In this document: positions 9,879-22,241 of the stretch, in pieces
How the letters are laid out: every line of letters begins with the position of its first letter
Numbering within the stretch: the stretch's first letter is position 1
Origin: Oscillospiraceae bacterium
GTDB lineage: Bacteria > Bacillota_A > Clostridia > Oscillospirales > Oscillospiraceae
Assembly (NCBI GenBank): GCA_017381835.1
Contig: JAFOBK010000122.1
Span: forward strand, 1-26,422
Direction of reading: 5' to 3'
DNA length: 26,422 bases
Translations under genes and position numbers: made by a program
The notes under the pieces: model-generated
Seen by the model: only the letters and a program-made list of their open reading frames with translations
Database searches by the model: none
Told to the model about the DNA's origin: nothing

Positions 9879-10265
9879 TTACTTCTCGACGATCTCCAGG
9901 ATCTCCATGGGGCAAGCCTTGACACAGATGCCGCAGGCGATACACTTGGTGGTAGGACCGTTTTCGGGAGCTACCATGACCTTCATGGGGCAAATCTCAA
10001 CGCACTTGCCGCAAGAGGTGCAGAGCTTCTTGTTGATCATGTAGACACCGGTCTTGGGGTTCTGGGTAATCGCACCAGCCTCACAGACCTTAGCGCACTT
10101 GCCGCACTGAATGCAGACCATAGGCTTAGCCTCGCCCTTCTTATCCACGATCTGGATGCAGGACAGGTCCTGATGGAACTGCTTATAGAAAGCGGTGGAA
10201 CATGCGTCAACACACTGCAGACATGCCATGCACTGTCCGCCCTTTTTAACTGTAAGCTTCTTCAT
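9879..10265 (-). CDS. Polyferredoxin-like electron carrier with four Cys motifs
   Basis: A 128-residue soluble iron-sulfur protein. There are four Cys groups: C12-C15-C18-C22 (CMACLQCVDAC), C51-C54-C57-C61 (CIQCGKCAKVC), C82-C85-C88-C92 (CTSCGKCVEICP) and C108-C111-C114-C118 (CIACGICVKACP). A lone C36 sits between the first two. The groups can hold up to four 4Fe-4S clusters, as in electron-transfer subunits of the HycB/CooF/HydN type. No partner oxidoreductase lies beside it: it has its own promoter and terminator, so it probably acts as a free carrier or serves enzymes encoded elsewhere. The start at 10265 has AAGGGG about 8 bases upstream. Family sure; partner unknown. Confidence 0.9.
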   Translation of the reverse strand: MKKLTVKKGGQCMACLQCVDACSTAFYKQFHQDLSCIQIVDKKGEAKPMVCIQCGKCAKVCEAGAITQNPKTGVYMINKKLCTSCGKCVEICPMKVMVAPENGPTTKCIACGICVKACPMEILEIVEK

Positions 10266-10454: not shown

Positions 10455-10757
10455 ATGAAAAAGCTTTTCTCAATTGCACTGGCGCTTGTCCTTACCTTTA
10501 CGCTGGCTGCCTGCGGCTGTCAGGCTACGGATCCCGTGCCCGCAACCACTGTGCCCACAACTATTCCTGCCACAACAGCACCTACAACCATCCCCACTAC
10601 CGCCCCCACAACGGTTCCTCCTATGGACCCGAGCATGGAAACCAACATTCCTGATCCCAGTGTAGATACCTCTGTCCCTGATATGACGGAAGATACCACA
10701 GATCAGACCGAGGAAAGCAGTCTGGCCGGTAATGAAGGCCGGATGCGGATGCGATAA
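10455..10757 (+). CDS. Small Thr/Pro-rich lipoprotein
   Basis: A 100-residue secreted lipoprotein of unknown function. It has a lysine start (MKK), a hydrophobic stretch and the lipobox LAAC, so signal peptidase II would cut before Cys20 and a lipid would anchor the protein outside the membrane. Residues 24-56 are repeats of Thr and Pro (PTTIPATTAPTTIPTTAP and similar), a flexible and possibly glycosylated stalk. An acidic Asp/Thr/Glu segment follows (57-90), and the C-terminus is short and basic (GRMRMR). There is no recognisable domain. GGAGG lies 7 bases before the ATG, and a strong terminator follows the stop. It is a single-gene unit, divergent from the ferredoxin gene. Confidence 0.8.
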   Translation: MKKLFSIALALVLTFTLAACGCQATDPVPATTVPTTIPATTAPTTIPTTAPTTVPPMDPSMETNIPDPSVDTSVPDMTEDTTDQTEESSLAGNEGRMRMR

Positions 10758-10788
10758 AAAAACCGGGAACGATGTTCCCGGTTTTTCG
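10756..10788. terminator. Bidirectional terminator between convergent genes
   Basis: A perfect 10-base stem, AACCGGGAAC (10761-10770) with GTTCCCGGTT (10774-10783), and a 3-base GAT loop. T residues follow on the plus strand (10782-10786), and the A run 10756-10762 gives a T run on the minus strand. It serves both the lipoprotein gene and the decarboxylase-like gene ending at 10815. Confidence 0.93.
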
Positions 10789-10814: not shown

Positions 10815-11693
10815 TCACAAAATCGTCACATAGCGGGTCAAGTTCTTCTTCATCCGCTCTGCTGCCTCCACCCCGCAGGCGACATACTCAGCTCCGTTTG
10901 CCTGTTCGGTACTCCAGGCGCAGGTAACACCGGCACCGGCGCAGGCAATGGCACCGTGACCCAATTTATCAAAGGCATAACTGCAGTTCTTAGCATTGGC
11001 ATTGGAATAATCATAACCATCTACCAACAAGAACAAGCTCTTATAGCGTGCCCGCAGTTTCTTCAGAACATCCGCAACAGTTGCCGGTCCAATCGCTGCG
11101 ATCTGACTATATCCGCTGCGGCCGGTCAATGGTTCGCAAAACCGATAGACAATATCCGCAGCTGCCATATGAACAAGGCGGGATCCAGTCAGCAGATCCT
11201 GCAGTTCTGCCGCAGATTTATTGGCTGTACGAAGCACCACAAACAAATCCTTACCGCTGTTTTTCACCGCTTCCACATAAGGCTTCAGCACATCGCTGCC
11301 GGCATAGGTACTGACTGCCAGGCCGTCGAACTGCCAAAGACAAGTATCTGCAAACAGGCTATTTACTGCATATTCTGCTGCCTGGCGGGACAAACACTCC
11401 GGCGCATCCAGCAGAACATAGTAATCCAGGGACTTGGCATAGGCAGTCAATCTGCTCATCAGAAATAAGCCATCGGGCCCAAGAAGGCTGAATCTGCCCA
11501 TGTTAAACCGCGCAGCGGGAACAATATCTTTCAGTCCATCCAGCAGTTCCCTGCAAAAACGCTCATATGCCCGGATCTCATTTTCTTCTTCAAACAAGAT
11601 ATGGGGTGGAACTTTATTCGGTTCCACAGAAAAATCCACCATTGACGGGTTCTTCATTTTCCGGATTTTTTCCTGCAGTTTGTCCATAGCCAT
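10815..11693 (-). CDS. OMP decarboxylase-like protein lacking active-site residues
   Basis: A 292-residue protein that lines up along its length with type 2 PyrF (orotidine-5'-phosphate decarboxylase): MDKLQEKIRKMKNPS at the start, DIVPAARFN (56-64), GPDGL and AYAKSLDYYVLLD (72-96), SDVLKPYVEAVKNSGKDLFVVLRT, SGYSQIAAIGPAT and a C-terminal amphipathic helix. The catalytic positions are lost. The VGLDPR region reads VDFSVEP (19-25), KPQ reads RFN (62-64), DxKRxD reads DAPECL (96-101), the phosphate-binding PGYGAQGG reads DGYDYSNA, and the SRG region reads AGAG. It probably does not decarboxylate OMP and may be a binding or regulatory pseudoenzyme. The ATG at 11693 has GGAGGG 7 bases upstream; a GTG at 11711 overlaps that site. 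Family by my own recall, not a search. Confidence 0.75.
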   Translation of the reverse strand: MAMDKLQEKIRKMKNPSMVDFSVEPNKVPPHILFEEENEIRAYERFCRELLDGLKDIVPAARFNMGRFSLLGPDGLFLMSRLTAYAKSLDYYVLLDAPECLSRQAAEYAVNSLFADTCLWQFDGLAVSTYAGSDVLKPYVEAVKNSGKDLFVVLRTANKSAAELQDLLTGSRLVHMAAADIVYRFCEPLTGRSGYSQIAAIGPATVADVLKKLRARYKSLFLLVDGYDYSNANAKNCSYAFDKLGHGAIACAGAGVTCAWSTEQANGAEYVACGVEAAERMKKNLTRYVTIL

Positions 11694-11751
11694 GTCCGAT
11701 CCCTCCAACACAAATTCTCACTAAGAAACGGGAAAATTTGCATTTTCTTTT

Positions 11752-11779
11752 ATTATAACAGATTTTTCCACTTGCGCAA
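11752..11779 (-). promoter_or_regulatory. Promoter of the decarboxylase-like gene
   Basis: Minus-strand -35 TTGCGC (11779-11774), a 16-base spacer and the perfect -10 TATAAT (11757-11752). The -35 sits in the centre of a dyad (11764-11789), which suggests an operator. Confidence 0.65.
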
Positions 11780-11847: not shown

Positions 11848-12027
11848 ATGCAACTTAAAGGATTGGCAATTACAATGGGTTTGGGTGCTGCCGCAGGCGC
11901 GGTGGCAATTATGATGATGCCCAAAACCAACCCCACCAGAAAGCTGGCATCCAAAGCAGCAGAAAAAGTCGAAGGTGCTGCGGTGCATTTGGGCAATAAG
12001 CTTTCCAGTGAGATTGATCACATGTAA
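11848..12027 (+). CDS. Small single-span membrane protein, unknown function
   Basis: A 59-residue protein I do not recognise. A glycine/alanine-rich hydrophobic segment (about 5-25, GLAITMGLGAAAGAVAIMMM) should span the membrane. It is followed by a basic PKTNPTRK and an amphipathic helix rich in Ala, Lys and Glu (about 33-57). The general build resembles YtxH-type small proteins, but I see no motif proving this. The ATG at 11848 has AAAGGAGG 7 bases upstream. The frame opens at 11827, but that ATG lies upstream of the ribosome site. It is divergent from the decarboxylase-like gene and convergent with the clp gene. No good sigma-A promoter is visible before it. Confidence 0.7.
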   Translation: MQLKGLAITMGLGAAAGAVAIMMMPKTNPTRKLASKAAEKVEGAAVHLGNKLSSEIDHM

Positions 12028-12062: not shown

Positions 12063-14348
12063 TTATTGAGCATTGACCACAATTTCTTCATTCTCCACAG
12101 TAATGGAAATAGAGGAAATGGGATATTCGAAAGAATCAATGATCTTTTCGCTGATAGGATCTTCCAGGCTGCGCTGAATCTCACGGCGCAGATTACGAGC
12201 GCCATAAGTGACAGAAAATGCTTTCTTCACCAAATATTCACGGACAGAAGGATCGATGGTCAGCTCCAGTTCGCGAGCCGCCAGGCTTTCACGCAGTTCC
12301 TTCAGCATGATATCTGCAATGCCAACAAAGTTTTCTTCTGTCAGATGGTTAAAGGTGATGATCTCATCCACACGGTTGATAAATTCAGGACGCAGGAAGT
12401 CCTTCAGGGCCTTCATGGTCTTTTCCCGAACCATATCCGTGTCGCTTCTGCCGAAGCCAACACCACCAACGCGGCCATCAGAACCGGCATTGGAAGTCAT
12501 GACAATGATAGCATTCTCAAAGTTCACCGTTCTGCCCTGAGCATCGGTAATACGGCCGTCATCCAGCACCTGCAGAAGCACATTCAGCACATCAGGATGA
12601 GCCTTTTCAATTTCATCGAAAAGTACTACAGAATAAGGCTTTCTGCGGATTTTTTCCGTCAGCTGGCCGGCTTCATCATAACCAACATAACCGGGAGGAG
12701 AACCGATCAGCTTGGAAACCGTGTGCTTCTCCATAAACTCAGACATATCCAGGCGGATCAGAGAGTCTACAGAATCAAACAGATCATTGGCAAGGCACTT
12801 CACCAACTCTGTCTTACCCACACCGGTGGGACCAACAAAGATAAAGGACACAGGTCTGCGCTTAGGGCTGATACCTACACGGTTGCGGCGGATTGCCTTT
12901 GCAACAGCTTCCACAGCCTGATCCTGACCGACAATATGCTCCTTCAGACGGTCTGCCAGACCCTTAATCTGCTGATACTCCTGAGCCTTGATCTTGGAGG
13001 CGGGAATCTTGGTCCACAGTTCGATAATACGTGCCAGGTTCTCCATGGTGACCGCAGGCGCGGGCACTTTTTCCAGCTGCTCAATCTCATTGGCCAGATT
13101 GCAAAGACGGCTGCGAATCATAGCAAGGCGCTCATAATGCTCATTCTCCGTATCTTCGGTGAGCATACGCAGCTCCAGTTCATAGTCATCCCGCTCTTTC
13201 TTCAGCTCTGCCAGGCGGGAGATTTCCTTACAGCGCAGGTTCAAATCAGAACATGCTTCATCCAGCAGGTCGATGGCCTTATCGGGCAGGAAACGGTCGG
13301 AAATATAACGCTCGGAGAGAATGACACACTGGCGGGCAATCTCAGGAGAGATGGTAACACCGTGGAACTCCGCATAAGCCTTGGCAATACCCTGCATGAT
13401 CTGGCAAGCTTCCTCAATAGAAGGCTCGGCAACAGACACCGGCTGGAAACGGCGCTCAAGCGCTGCATCCTTTTCAATATGCTTGCGGTACTCATTAAAA
13501 GTAGTGGCGCCGATCACCTGAATCTCACCCCGGGACAGGGCAGGTTTCAGAATATTGGCAGCATTCATAGAGCCTTCCGCATCACCGGCACCAACCAGGT
13601 TGTGCACCTCATCGATTACCAAAATGATGTTGCCACAGGCTTTGATCTCAGAGATCAGCGCCTTCATACGGCTTTCAAACTGGCCGCGGAACTGGGTGCC
13701 AGCCACAAGTGCGGTCAGATCCAGCAGGAATACTTCCTTATCACGGAGCTTATAAGGCACATCACCTGCTGCGATCCGCTGGGCAAGACCTTCTGCAATT
13801 GCCGTCTTACCAACGCCAGGTTCACCAATCAGACAAGGATTGTTCTTCTGACGCCGGTTCAGAATCTGAATCACACGCTCAGTTTCCACATCACGGCCGA
13901 TAACCTTATCCAAAGTACCTGCCTTTGCACGGCCGGTCAAATCCATGCAGTAGGTATCAAGGAATTTATGCTTATTATGCTTCTTCCCCTTAGAATCTTC
14001 CTTCTGCTCTTCTTCCGGTTCTTTCTTCTTTTTAGAAGGCAGGCTTCCGGCACCAAACAACTGATTCATCATGGGGAACGTGGCAGTACGGCTATCCGGT
14101 TCGTCGTCATCAGTTTCAGATTCACCGGGCATGCTGAACATACTGCTCATTTCATCGCTGAGGGTATCCAGGTCTTCTTCAGAAAATCCCATCTGCTTTA
14201 CTACATCCTCGATTTGAGGAATACCCAGACTCCGGGCGCAGCGCAGGCAATAGCCCTCATTCATAGTCACGCCGTTCTCCATCTTGGTGATGAAAACCAC
14301 GGCGATATTCTTCTTACACTTGGTACACAGTTTCGGCTGCATACACAT
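12063..14348 (-). CDS. clpE: ClpE-type AAA+ ATPase with N-terminal zinc finger
   Basis: A 761-residue Hsp100/Clp unfoldase. The N-terminus holds a Cys4 zinc finger (C8, C11, C34, C37), as in ClpE and McsA, instead of the double Clp_N domain of ClpC. A charged Lys/Glu linker (about 95-130) follows, then NBD1 with Walker A GEPGVGKT and Walker B VIDEVHN, a middle coiled-coil region, and NBD2 with [15 protein letters not shown] and an arginine-finger region. GGVGFG in NBD2 matches the VGF-type loop that docks on ClpP, so it likely feeds ClpP for degradation. The ATG at 14348 has AAAGGT 5 bases upstream; an ATG at 14342 is the alternative. It lies 81 bases after truA with its own inverted repeat. 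Symbol by domain layout. Confidence 0.88.
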
Positions 14349-14368
14349 CACTACCTTTCTTGGGAAAA

Positions 14369-14403
14369 TCCGTTTGTCTAGCCTGAACAATATCACAAAC
14401 GGA
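14369..14403. promoter_or_regulatory. Inverted repeat upstream of clpE (operator-like)
   Basis: Perfect 9-base arms TCCGTTTGT (14369-14377) and ACAAACGGA (14395-14403) enclose 17 bases that include GATATTGT on the minus strand, a possible -10 area. The site lies 20 bases upstream of the clpE start. It does not resemble the CtsR heptad repeat or the CIRCE element. Confidence 0.5.
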
Positions 14404-22012: not shown

Positions 22013-22018
22013 TCAACG

Positions 22019-22241
22019 CCTGCTTGGTGCGTAGCGTGTCCTTTTGGACCCACATTTTTTATTTGGGACGTTAGACTTCCCTATCTGTTTGCAGACCTCC
22101 CGCCTACGCTTTGACGATAGGTGGATGTTGGGAGCAGTAACGATTGGGAGCGGCAACCCACCTGCCATTTCGTGCAGGTCATAATCGGATGCGTTACGGC
22201 CAAAGCGGGTATTGCATGGGGAGCTTGCTCCCCATGTTTTT
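22019..22241 (+). ncRNA. ssrS: Structured RNA of ~190 nt plus terminator, probably 6S RNA
   Basis: The ends 22019-22041 and 22187-22209 pair in a nearly continuous helix of about 22 base pairs, with one bulge on each side. Inside is an apical rod with stem CCGCCTA/TAGGTGG (22100-22106 with 22118-22124). A small hairpin, ACCTGC/GCAGGT (22160-22165 with 22174-22179), lies on the 3' side of the open middle. A long closing stem, a central bubble with a 3'-side hairpin, a terminal rod and a length near 190 nt are the 6S RNA plan (the RNA that binds sigma-A RNA polymerase). A perfect terminator follows (22215-22236). No open frame fits. That it is an RNA gene is likely; 6S identity is inference from shape, so the symbol is tentative. 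Confidence 0.65.
22215..22241 (+). terminator. Terminator after the structured RNA
   Basis: The 10-base perfect stem CATGGGGAGC/GCTCCCCATG (22215-22224 with 22227-22236) has a TT loop and is followed by five T residues. It separates the RNA from the phosphatase gene. Confidence 0.92.

Follow-up and report, generated by a model that had tools for sequence, protein, structure and literature searches.

An altered type 2 orotidine monophosphate decarboxylase in Oscillospiraceae with a putatively rebuilt active site

The window analysed here is a whole stretch of 26,422 nt from an Oscillospiraceae bacterium (GenBank assembly GCA_017381835.1, contig JAFOBK010000122.1, positions 1 to 26,422 of the forward strand). 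Its reverse strand carries a gene for a homologue of type 2 orotidine monophosphate decarboxylase (OMPDC; PyrF2) in which residues needed for catalysis and for phosphate binding have been replaced. The intact, full-length open reading frame (ORF) that an initial annotation had described from the sequence alone was recovered with either of two starts (ATG, 292 aa; GTG, 298 aa):

10815..11693, reverse strand: altered type 2 PyrF, 292 aa, ATG start; pocket set R62, D96, P98, R155, N158, Q165, D225, D228
11694..11711, reverse strand: in-frame upstream extension to a GTG start, giving the 298-aa version (10815-11711); the ATG at 11693 is the likelier start

M1 of the ATG version was invariant and 28 of the 30 alignment rows started there, P0072 and P0110 reaching further upstream; a GGAGG was read from the sequence just 5' of this ATG.

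The window protein matched the NCBIfam model TIGR02127 (pyrF_sub2) with 100.1 bits (E 1.2e-28), short of the cut-off of 110.6, and the next-best NCBIfam model (42.3 bits) was also an OMPDC. The Pfam model PF00215 (OMPdecase / HUMPS family) gave 22.1 bits, below its gathering cut-off of 27. Despite this low Pfam score, homology to OMPDC is clear from the TIGR02127 match and from the predicted structure, which has the OMPDC fold with 3r89 as the nearest solved structure. OMPDCs were alone among the 50 VIA-align matches listed, which does not in itself exclude other families. The profile search that the initial annotation had proposed found no better match to another family, and its assignment to type 2 PyrF holds, the protein being a true PyrF2 descendant. 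Chance similarity to OMPDC was ruled out by the E value of the TIGR02127 match. A phage or defence gene was also considered and rejected, as there was no PADLOC match and a single PHROG match at E 0.068.

In the excerpt of PMC12631982 consulted, the catalytic tetrad of human OMPDC is given as Lys281, Asp312, Lys314 and Asp317, with Gln430, Tyr432, Gly450 and Arg451 gripping the phosphate. The tetrad, Gln430 and Arg451 were placed through the motifs at window positions 62, 96, 98, 101, 230 and 254, the matching of the two numberings being our own reading. These positions were K, D, K, D, Q and R in all 19 canonical relatives aligned and R, D, P, L, S and A in the window protein. As initially annotated, the Lys of KPQ is replaced by R62 with D96 kept, the Lys and second Asp of DxKRxD have become P98 and L101, PGYGAQGG reads DGYDYSNA, and the Arg of SRG is A254. 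The tetrad Lys...Asp-x-Lys-x-x-Asp was therefore represented only by its first Asp (R62, D96, P98, L101), and the phosphate-gripping Gln and Arg were both absent (S230, A254). Type 2 OMPDCs possess the catalytic Lys, the second Asp and the phosphate Gln and Arg, whereas the window protein lacks these, scores under the family cut-off and has new residues of its own (R62, R155, D225 and D228). Judged by tetrad, phosphate grip and profile score, it departs from OMP decarboxylases in sequence and retains their predicted fold, and on these grounds forms a new branch, altered in sequence, within the known OMPDC family.

Homologues of the window protein with E ≤ 1e-5 numbered 4266; those compared were the 120 listed, which were 68–99 % identical to it. 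R62, D96, P98, R155, N158 and D228 were present in 120/120 of these listed homologues, and position 225 was D in 115 and E in five. In 148 clade sequences, R62, R155, D225 and D228 each stood at 97–98 % (weighted), and the old gripper Arg position was among the most variable (92nd percentile of entropy). As far as sequence can tell, the active site is rebuilt and not merely erased. Alignment and the strand ends of the predicted model suggest that the new polar residues lie at the barrel mouth, the active-site end of OMPDC. A strain oddity was rejected, as all 120 listed homologues agree on the new residues.

Two relatives on GTDB contigs, each from an Oscillospiraceae bacterium, were 52 % (L001, genome G001) and 50 % (L002, genome G002) identical to the window protein. 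The series of relatives was read from 300 genomes of the family of G001; 136 genomes of its genus were searched as well. The family sample gave matches to the window profile in 150 genomes and to TIGR02127 in 151, the double matches in G010 and G290 being partial ones. Reading of the motifs revealed graded forms, from canonical proteins through intermediates to rebuilt or eroded forms, the window's among the last. The classes (I, D and S) were assigned by visual inspection of the motifs before type 1 PyrF, pyrE and pyrB were searched for, and the intermediates (class I) were those with the catalytic Lys lost and the rest of the site largely present, so that loss of this Lys is part of the class definition. 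In the 22 intermediates it was replaced by M (14), S (four), A (two) or N (two). They kept the Asp of GLDP (21/22), K62 (20/22), D96 (21/22), the gripper Gln (19/22) and the gripper Arg (22/22); none of the 33 lysine-keeping proteins read had lost the gripper Gln or Arg. A nucleotide grip kept without the catalytic lysine would fit a pseudoenzyme that binds a ligand of the uridine monophosphate (UMP) type.

A quick phylogenetic tree was reconstructed without bootstrap and with the DxKRxD columns left out, branch support being given by the Shimodaira–Hasegawa-like approximate likelihood ratio test (SH-aLRT). One lysine-less clade comprised 62 of the 89 rows (SH-aLRT 97), beside canonical G018 and G126/G237/G035, and a second, of six short proteins (SH-aLRT 100), was nested among canonical ones. 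With G182 and G063 on long branches, the minimum on this tree was four changes. The short PyrF2 descendants (241–266 aa) of G036, G127, G189, G238, G038 and G276 (loci L070, L076, L071, L075, L072 and L074, respectively) lost the Lys independently of the lineage that includes the window, and these genes too have been retained. G337 contains, in addition to the altered gene and a type 1 PyrF, another, more divergent type 2 PyrF-like match (G337:C23:28009-28905, L159), which is either contamination or a paralogue and was omitted from the tree and the counts.

Seventy genomes, picked and not random, were searched for type 1 PyrF (PyrF1; TIGR01740), pyrE (TIGR00336) and pyrB (TIGR00670) over the cut-offs. 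They comprised 20 of the 33 lysine-keeping genomes read by then, all 40 lysine-lost genomes then read and 10 of the 149 without PyrF2. PyrF1 was found in none of the 20 lysine-keeping genomes (pyrE in 18, pyrB in 19). It was present in 24 lysine-lost genomes, with pyrE in 23 and pyrB in 23, the misses in G167 and G270 being a near-cut-off and a partial match; the other 16 lysine-lost genomes had no PyrF1, pyrE or pyrB over the cut-offs. In the 10 genomes without PyrF2, each of the three was found in nine. Altered PyrF2 therefore also occurs in genomes for which the searches detected none of PyrF1, pyrE and pyrB, which the initial annotation did not mention. A role as a subunit of PyrF1 was rejected, as 16 of the 40 altered genomes lack PyrF1 over the cut-off.

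The same link was seen across the 300 genomes: PyrF1 was found in none of the 106 genomes with PyrF2 at ≥ 233 bits, in 25 of the 44 with a lower-scoring PyrF2 and in 115 of the 149 without PyrF2 (Fisher p 7e-17, uncorrected for kinship). G207, which had PyrF1 and a TIGR02127 match at E 9e-4 only, was left out of the PyrF2 count. The lysine position was read in 35 of the 106 high-scoring genomes, all of which keep it, and in 41 of the 44 low-scoring ones (all except G125, G290 and G190), all of which have lost it. Within the genus of G001, 96 of the 136 genomes had a match, 84 of the 96 also carried PyrF1, and the Lys was lost in all 28 whose sequence was read. Of these matches, 94 reached at least 278 bits on the window profile, above the canonical family proteins (≤ 271 among the matches listed), and those of G313 and G429 were fragments. 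Among the 12 genus genomes with a match and no PyrF1, pyrB was present in three and not found over the cut-off in nine. The expectation that such homologues recur in genomes with a normal PyrF was borne out, and the normal protein in these relatives is a type 1 replacement, not a paralogue, a point missed at first.

PyrF1 belongs to the same superfamily and is the probable functional replacement in the relatives. It is a separate gene at another place and, unlike the window protein, had DxKxxD and PGVR intact in the three genomes where it was read (G316, G352 and G001). Other same-strand frames near these three genes resemble pyrK, pyrD, pyrE and pyrB by eye, and pyrE and pyrB beside the PyrF1 of G001 were confirmed by profile. 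G172 has two full type 1 pyrF genes, on contigs C7 and C65, each accompanied by a pyrE and a pyrB of its own close by.

Selection was estimated as the ratio of non-synonymous to synonymous substitution (dN/dS) by simple Nei–Gojobori counts, with dS near saturation in many pairs. Altered pairs of at least 70 % identity gave 0.03–0.27 where dS was computable, for example 0.03–0.05 (G199/G139/G283), 0.04–0.10 (G055/G200/G284) and 0.27 (G038/G189). In the window's genus the range was 0.04–0.19, with G281/G316 saturated; canonical pairs of at least 70 % identity gave 0.11–0.51 and more distant altered pairs up to 0.56. No internal stop was found among the matches listed in the family and genus searches. 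The genes are thus intact and under purifying selection with catalytic residues lost, as in a pseudoenzyme, and the initial view that the window gene is not a decaying pseudogene holds.

Two neighbours on the same strand, both identified by profile match, define the site in the window's clade:

12063..14396, reverse strand: ClpB/ClpA-like AAA+ ATPase, upstream neighbour of the altered gene
9879..10265, reverse strand: multi-[4Fe-4S] ferredoxin, downstream

The altered gene of this clade lies between the Clp ATPase, also upstream in G001, G002, G281 and G137, and a ferredoxin-murB-whiA-dnaE block. In 20 canonical loci, pyrC precedes pyrF2 (15/20), pyrK and pyrD follow it (14/20) and a gene for a histidine phosphatase-GNAT fusion lies beyond (13/20). 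The fusion gene was downstream in 17 of the 22 intermediate loci, whose fetched stretches contained no pyrC, pyrK or pyrD. Outside the window's clade it also follows in all eight loci of the rebuilt or eroded kind, and it does so in three of seven short ones (the short locus of G182 additionally has a pyrC-like gene); within the window's clade it was nearby only in G137 (1/6). A same-strand ferredoxin was downstream in 6/6 window-clade, 16/19 further genus and 6/22 intermediate loci, in 4/8 other rebuilt or eroded loci, and in 0/7 short and 0/20 canonical loci. Flanks were short (155–480 bases upstream) in L112, L114 and L122, so neighbours absent there mean little. The altered gene appears to have descended vertically at the site of the former pyr operon, a point that the initial annotation had missed. 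Examples of the fusion protein, which is encoded downstream of PyrF2 whether the locus is canonical or altered, are L088:9261-10433 (+) and L120:6796-7935 (+).

The altered protein has probably taken another job. The account that we favour, with modest confidence, is that a displaced PyrF2 became a lysine-less binding pseudoenzyme, the pocket of which was refitted for another ligand in the window's clade. The window gene would descend vertically from the lineage's own PyrF2, whose work was presumably taken over by PyrF1 in a second pyrimidine operon or disappeared with the pathway. The catalytic lysine would have been lost first, most nucleotide-binding residues staying in a pseudoenzyme for a UMP-type ligand; in the window's clade the phosphate grip would then have been dropped, and that pocket would have acquired two Arg and two Asp instead. 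With the grip gone and these four residues fixed at the presumed barrel mouth in nearly every member read, the pocket may bind another ligand, probably an unphosphorylated one. A role in regulation or in binding a partner is conceivable, and the retained role seems independent of OMP and of PyrF1, because the gene is kept in genomes in which the searches found neither pyrE nor PyrF1.

Several observations count against this account. Displacement of PyrF2 has more often ended in loss than in retention, 115 of the 141 PyrF1 genomes among the 300 being without it. In the genus, 40 of the 136 genomes gave no match, 34 of them with PyrF1, so that the gene is either not essential there or, in some perhaps, lies in a draft gap. 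Independent contrasts for the redundancy link numbered two on well-supported branches and four on all branches, too few for a sign test, although both well-supported contrasts run in the expected direction in every pairing (genus rows were labelled by PyrF1 presence, G413 and G338 by lack of both PyrF1 and pyrB, and G012 and G162 by lack of PyrF1 only; four P rows, the window and G181 were unlabelled). The new charged residues may also be a new catalytic set or just internal salt bridges.

The first of these possibilities leads to the main rival, a new enzyme in which the refitted pocket (R62, D96, R155, N158, Q165, D225, D228) catalyses another reaction. HUMPS and KGPDC, which arose on the OMPDC fold, show that this barrel can acquire a new reaction; both retain a DxK motif that the window protein has lost, and the sole match naming HUMPS was the sub-cut-off one to PF00215. 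The polar residues newly fixed in the 148 sequences and placed by inference at the barrel mouth, the dN/dS values well below 1 and the ferredoxin downstream in the window-clade and most further genus loci would all suit such an enzyme. The intermediates, however, resemble binding-only proteins, the window gene sits between opposite-strand ORFs and so has no operon partner hinting at a pathway, and no general acid/base pair was identified in the window pocket; we regard a new enzyme as possible but rather unlikely. The initial annotation had left open a pseudoenzyme sensor or an enzyme with a new reaction; PyrF2 descent and loss of the old site agree with it, and the graded intermediates had escaped it. 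Occurrence both with PyrF1 and in genomes that yielded none of PyrF1, pyrE and pyrB would suit a ligand-free scaffold, since it suggests a role that depends on neither OMP nor PyrF1. PyrF2 would then have had a moonlighting partner, surface or dimer contacts alone would have been kept, and the new charges would fill an empty pocket; the newly fixed positions include those of the pocket, which makes this improbable. PyrF2 orthology and the kept D96 would be expected if the protein were still an OMP decarboxylase using other catalytic residues, but the catalytic tetrad of human OMPDC consists of Lys281, Asp312, Lys314 and Asp317 (PMC12631982, excerpt), the lysine-less form occurred only where redundant in 40/40 picked genomes, and 16 of the 40 had no pyrE over the cut-off and hence no OMP source was found; this is very hard to credit. 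A decaying pseudogene, to which the low profile score and the genus genomes without a match might point, is the least credible, being already contradicted by the shared new residues of the 120 listed homologues, the dN/dS of 0.03–0.27 and the lack of internal stops among the matches listed.

OMPDC is a textbook case of an extremely proficient catalyst. A broader proposal, that a new family arose from it by visible steps (displacement by a type 1 enzyme or pathway loss, then lysine loss while nucleotides were still bound, then pocket conversion in one large clade to a new, unphosphorylated ligand or a new reaction, the shorter lysine-less relatives having at least one further, separate origin), is advanced tentatively, the odds being somewhat against it. 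If the steps hold, living relatives would form a ladder from a working enzyme through a lysine-less binder to a rebuilt pocket, and an enzyme losing one job and taking another would become directly testable in OMPDC relatives. In open-licence PMC full texts, no natural altered or pseudoenzyme PyrF was recognized by title or start of abstract among the matches listed, a search for an orotidine decarboxylase pseudoenzyme had no match, and orotidine with Oscillospiraceae gave only a match that was unrelated by title. For annotation, it matters that 25 lysine-lost proteins, out of 41 read among the 300 genomes, exceed the TIGR02127 cut-off, 12 of them in genomes without PyrF1, pyrE or pyrB over the cut-offs, where the name PyrF would wrongly imply a piece of the pyrimidine pathway.

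Two possible signals flank the altered gene, both read from the sequence:

11752..11757, reverse strand: TATAAT, -10 like
10763..10781, reverse strand: terminator-like hairpin and T tract, between altered PyrF2 and a convergent lipoprotein-like ORF

The perfect -10 initially annotated is thus present, but the -35 paired with it is weak (TTGCGC, 3/6 matches, 16-nt spacer) and a promoter scan called nothing upstream of the gene, this site included. The clean terminator likewise exists as a hairpin past the stop, CCGGGAAC-ATC-GTTCCCGG followed by T7, but 10781-10763 was not among the calls of a terminator scan, possibly owing to base pairing between its A and T tracts. An Rfam scan found no element at the gene. 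The convergent ORF at 10455-10757 (+) encodes a 100-aa lipoprotein-like protein with a Thr/Pro-rich stretch and no Pfam match. Between the Clp-like gene and altered PyrF lies a further opposite-strand ORF of ~58 aa at 11849-12025 (+), and an opposite-strand frame of 87–100 codons, stop to stop, is present at the corresponding position in the window and in G001, G002, G281 and G137. Elsewhere in the window, at 22014-22215 (+), a 6S RNA (RF00013) was detected with 51.4 bits, above the gathering score.
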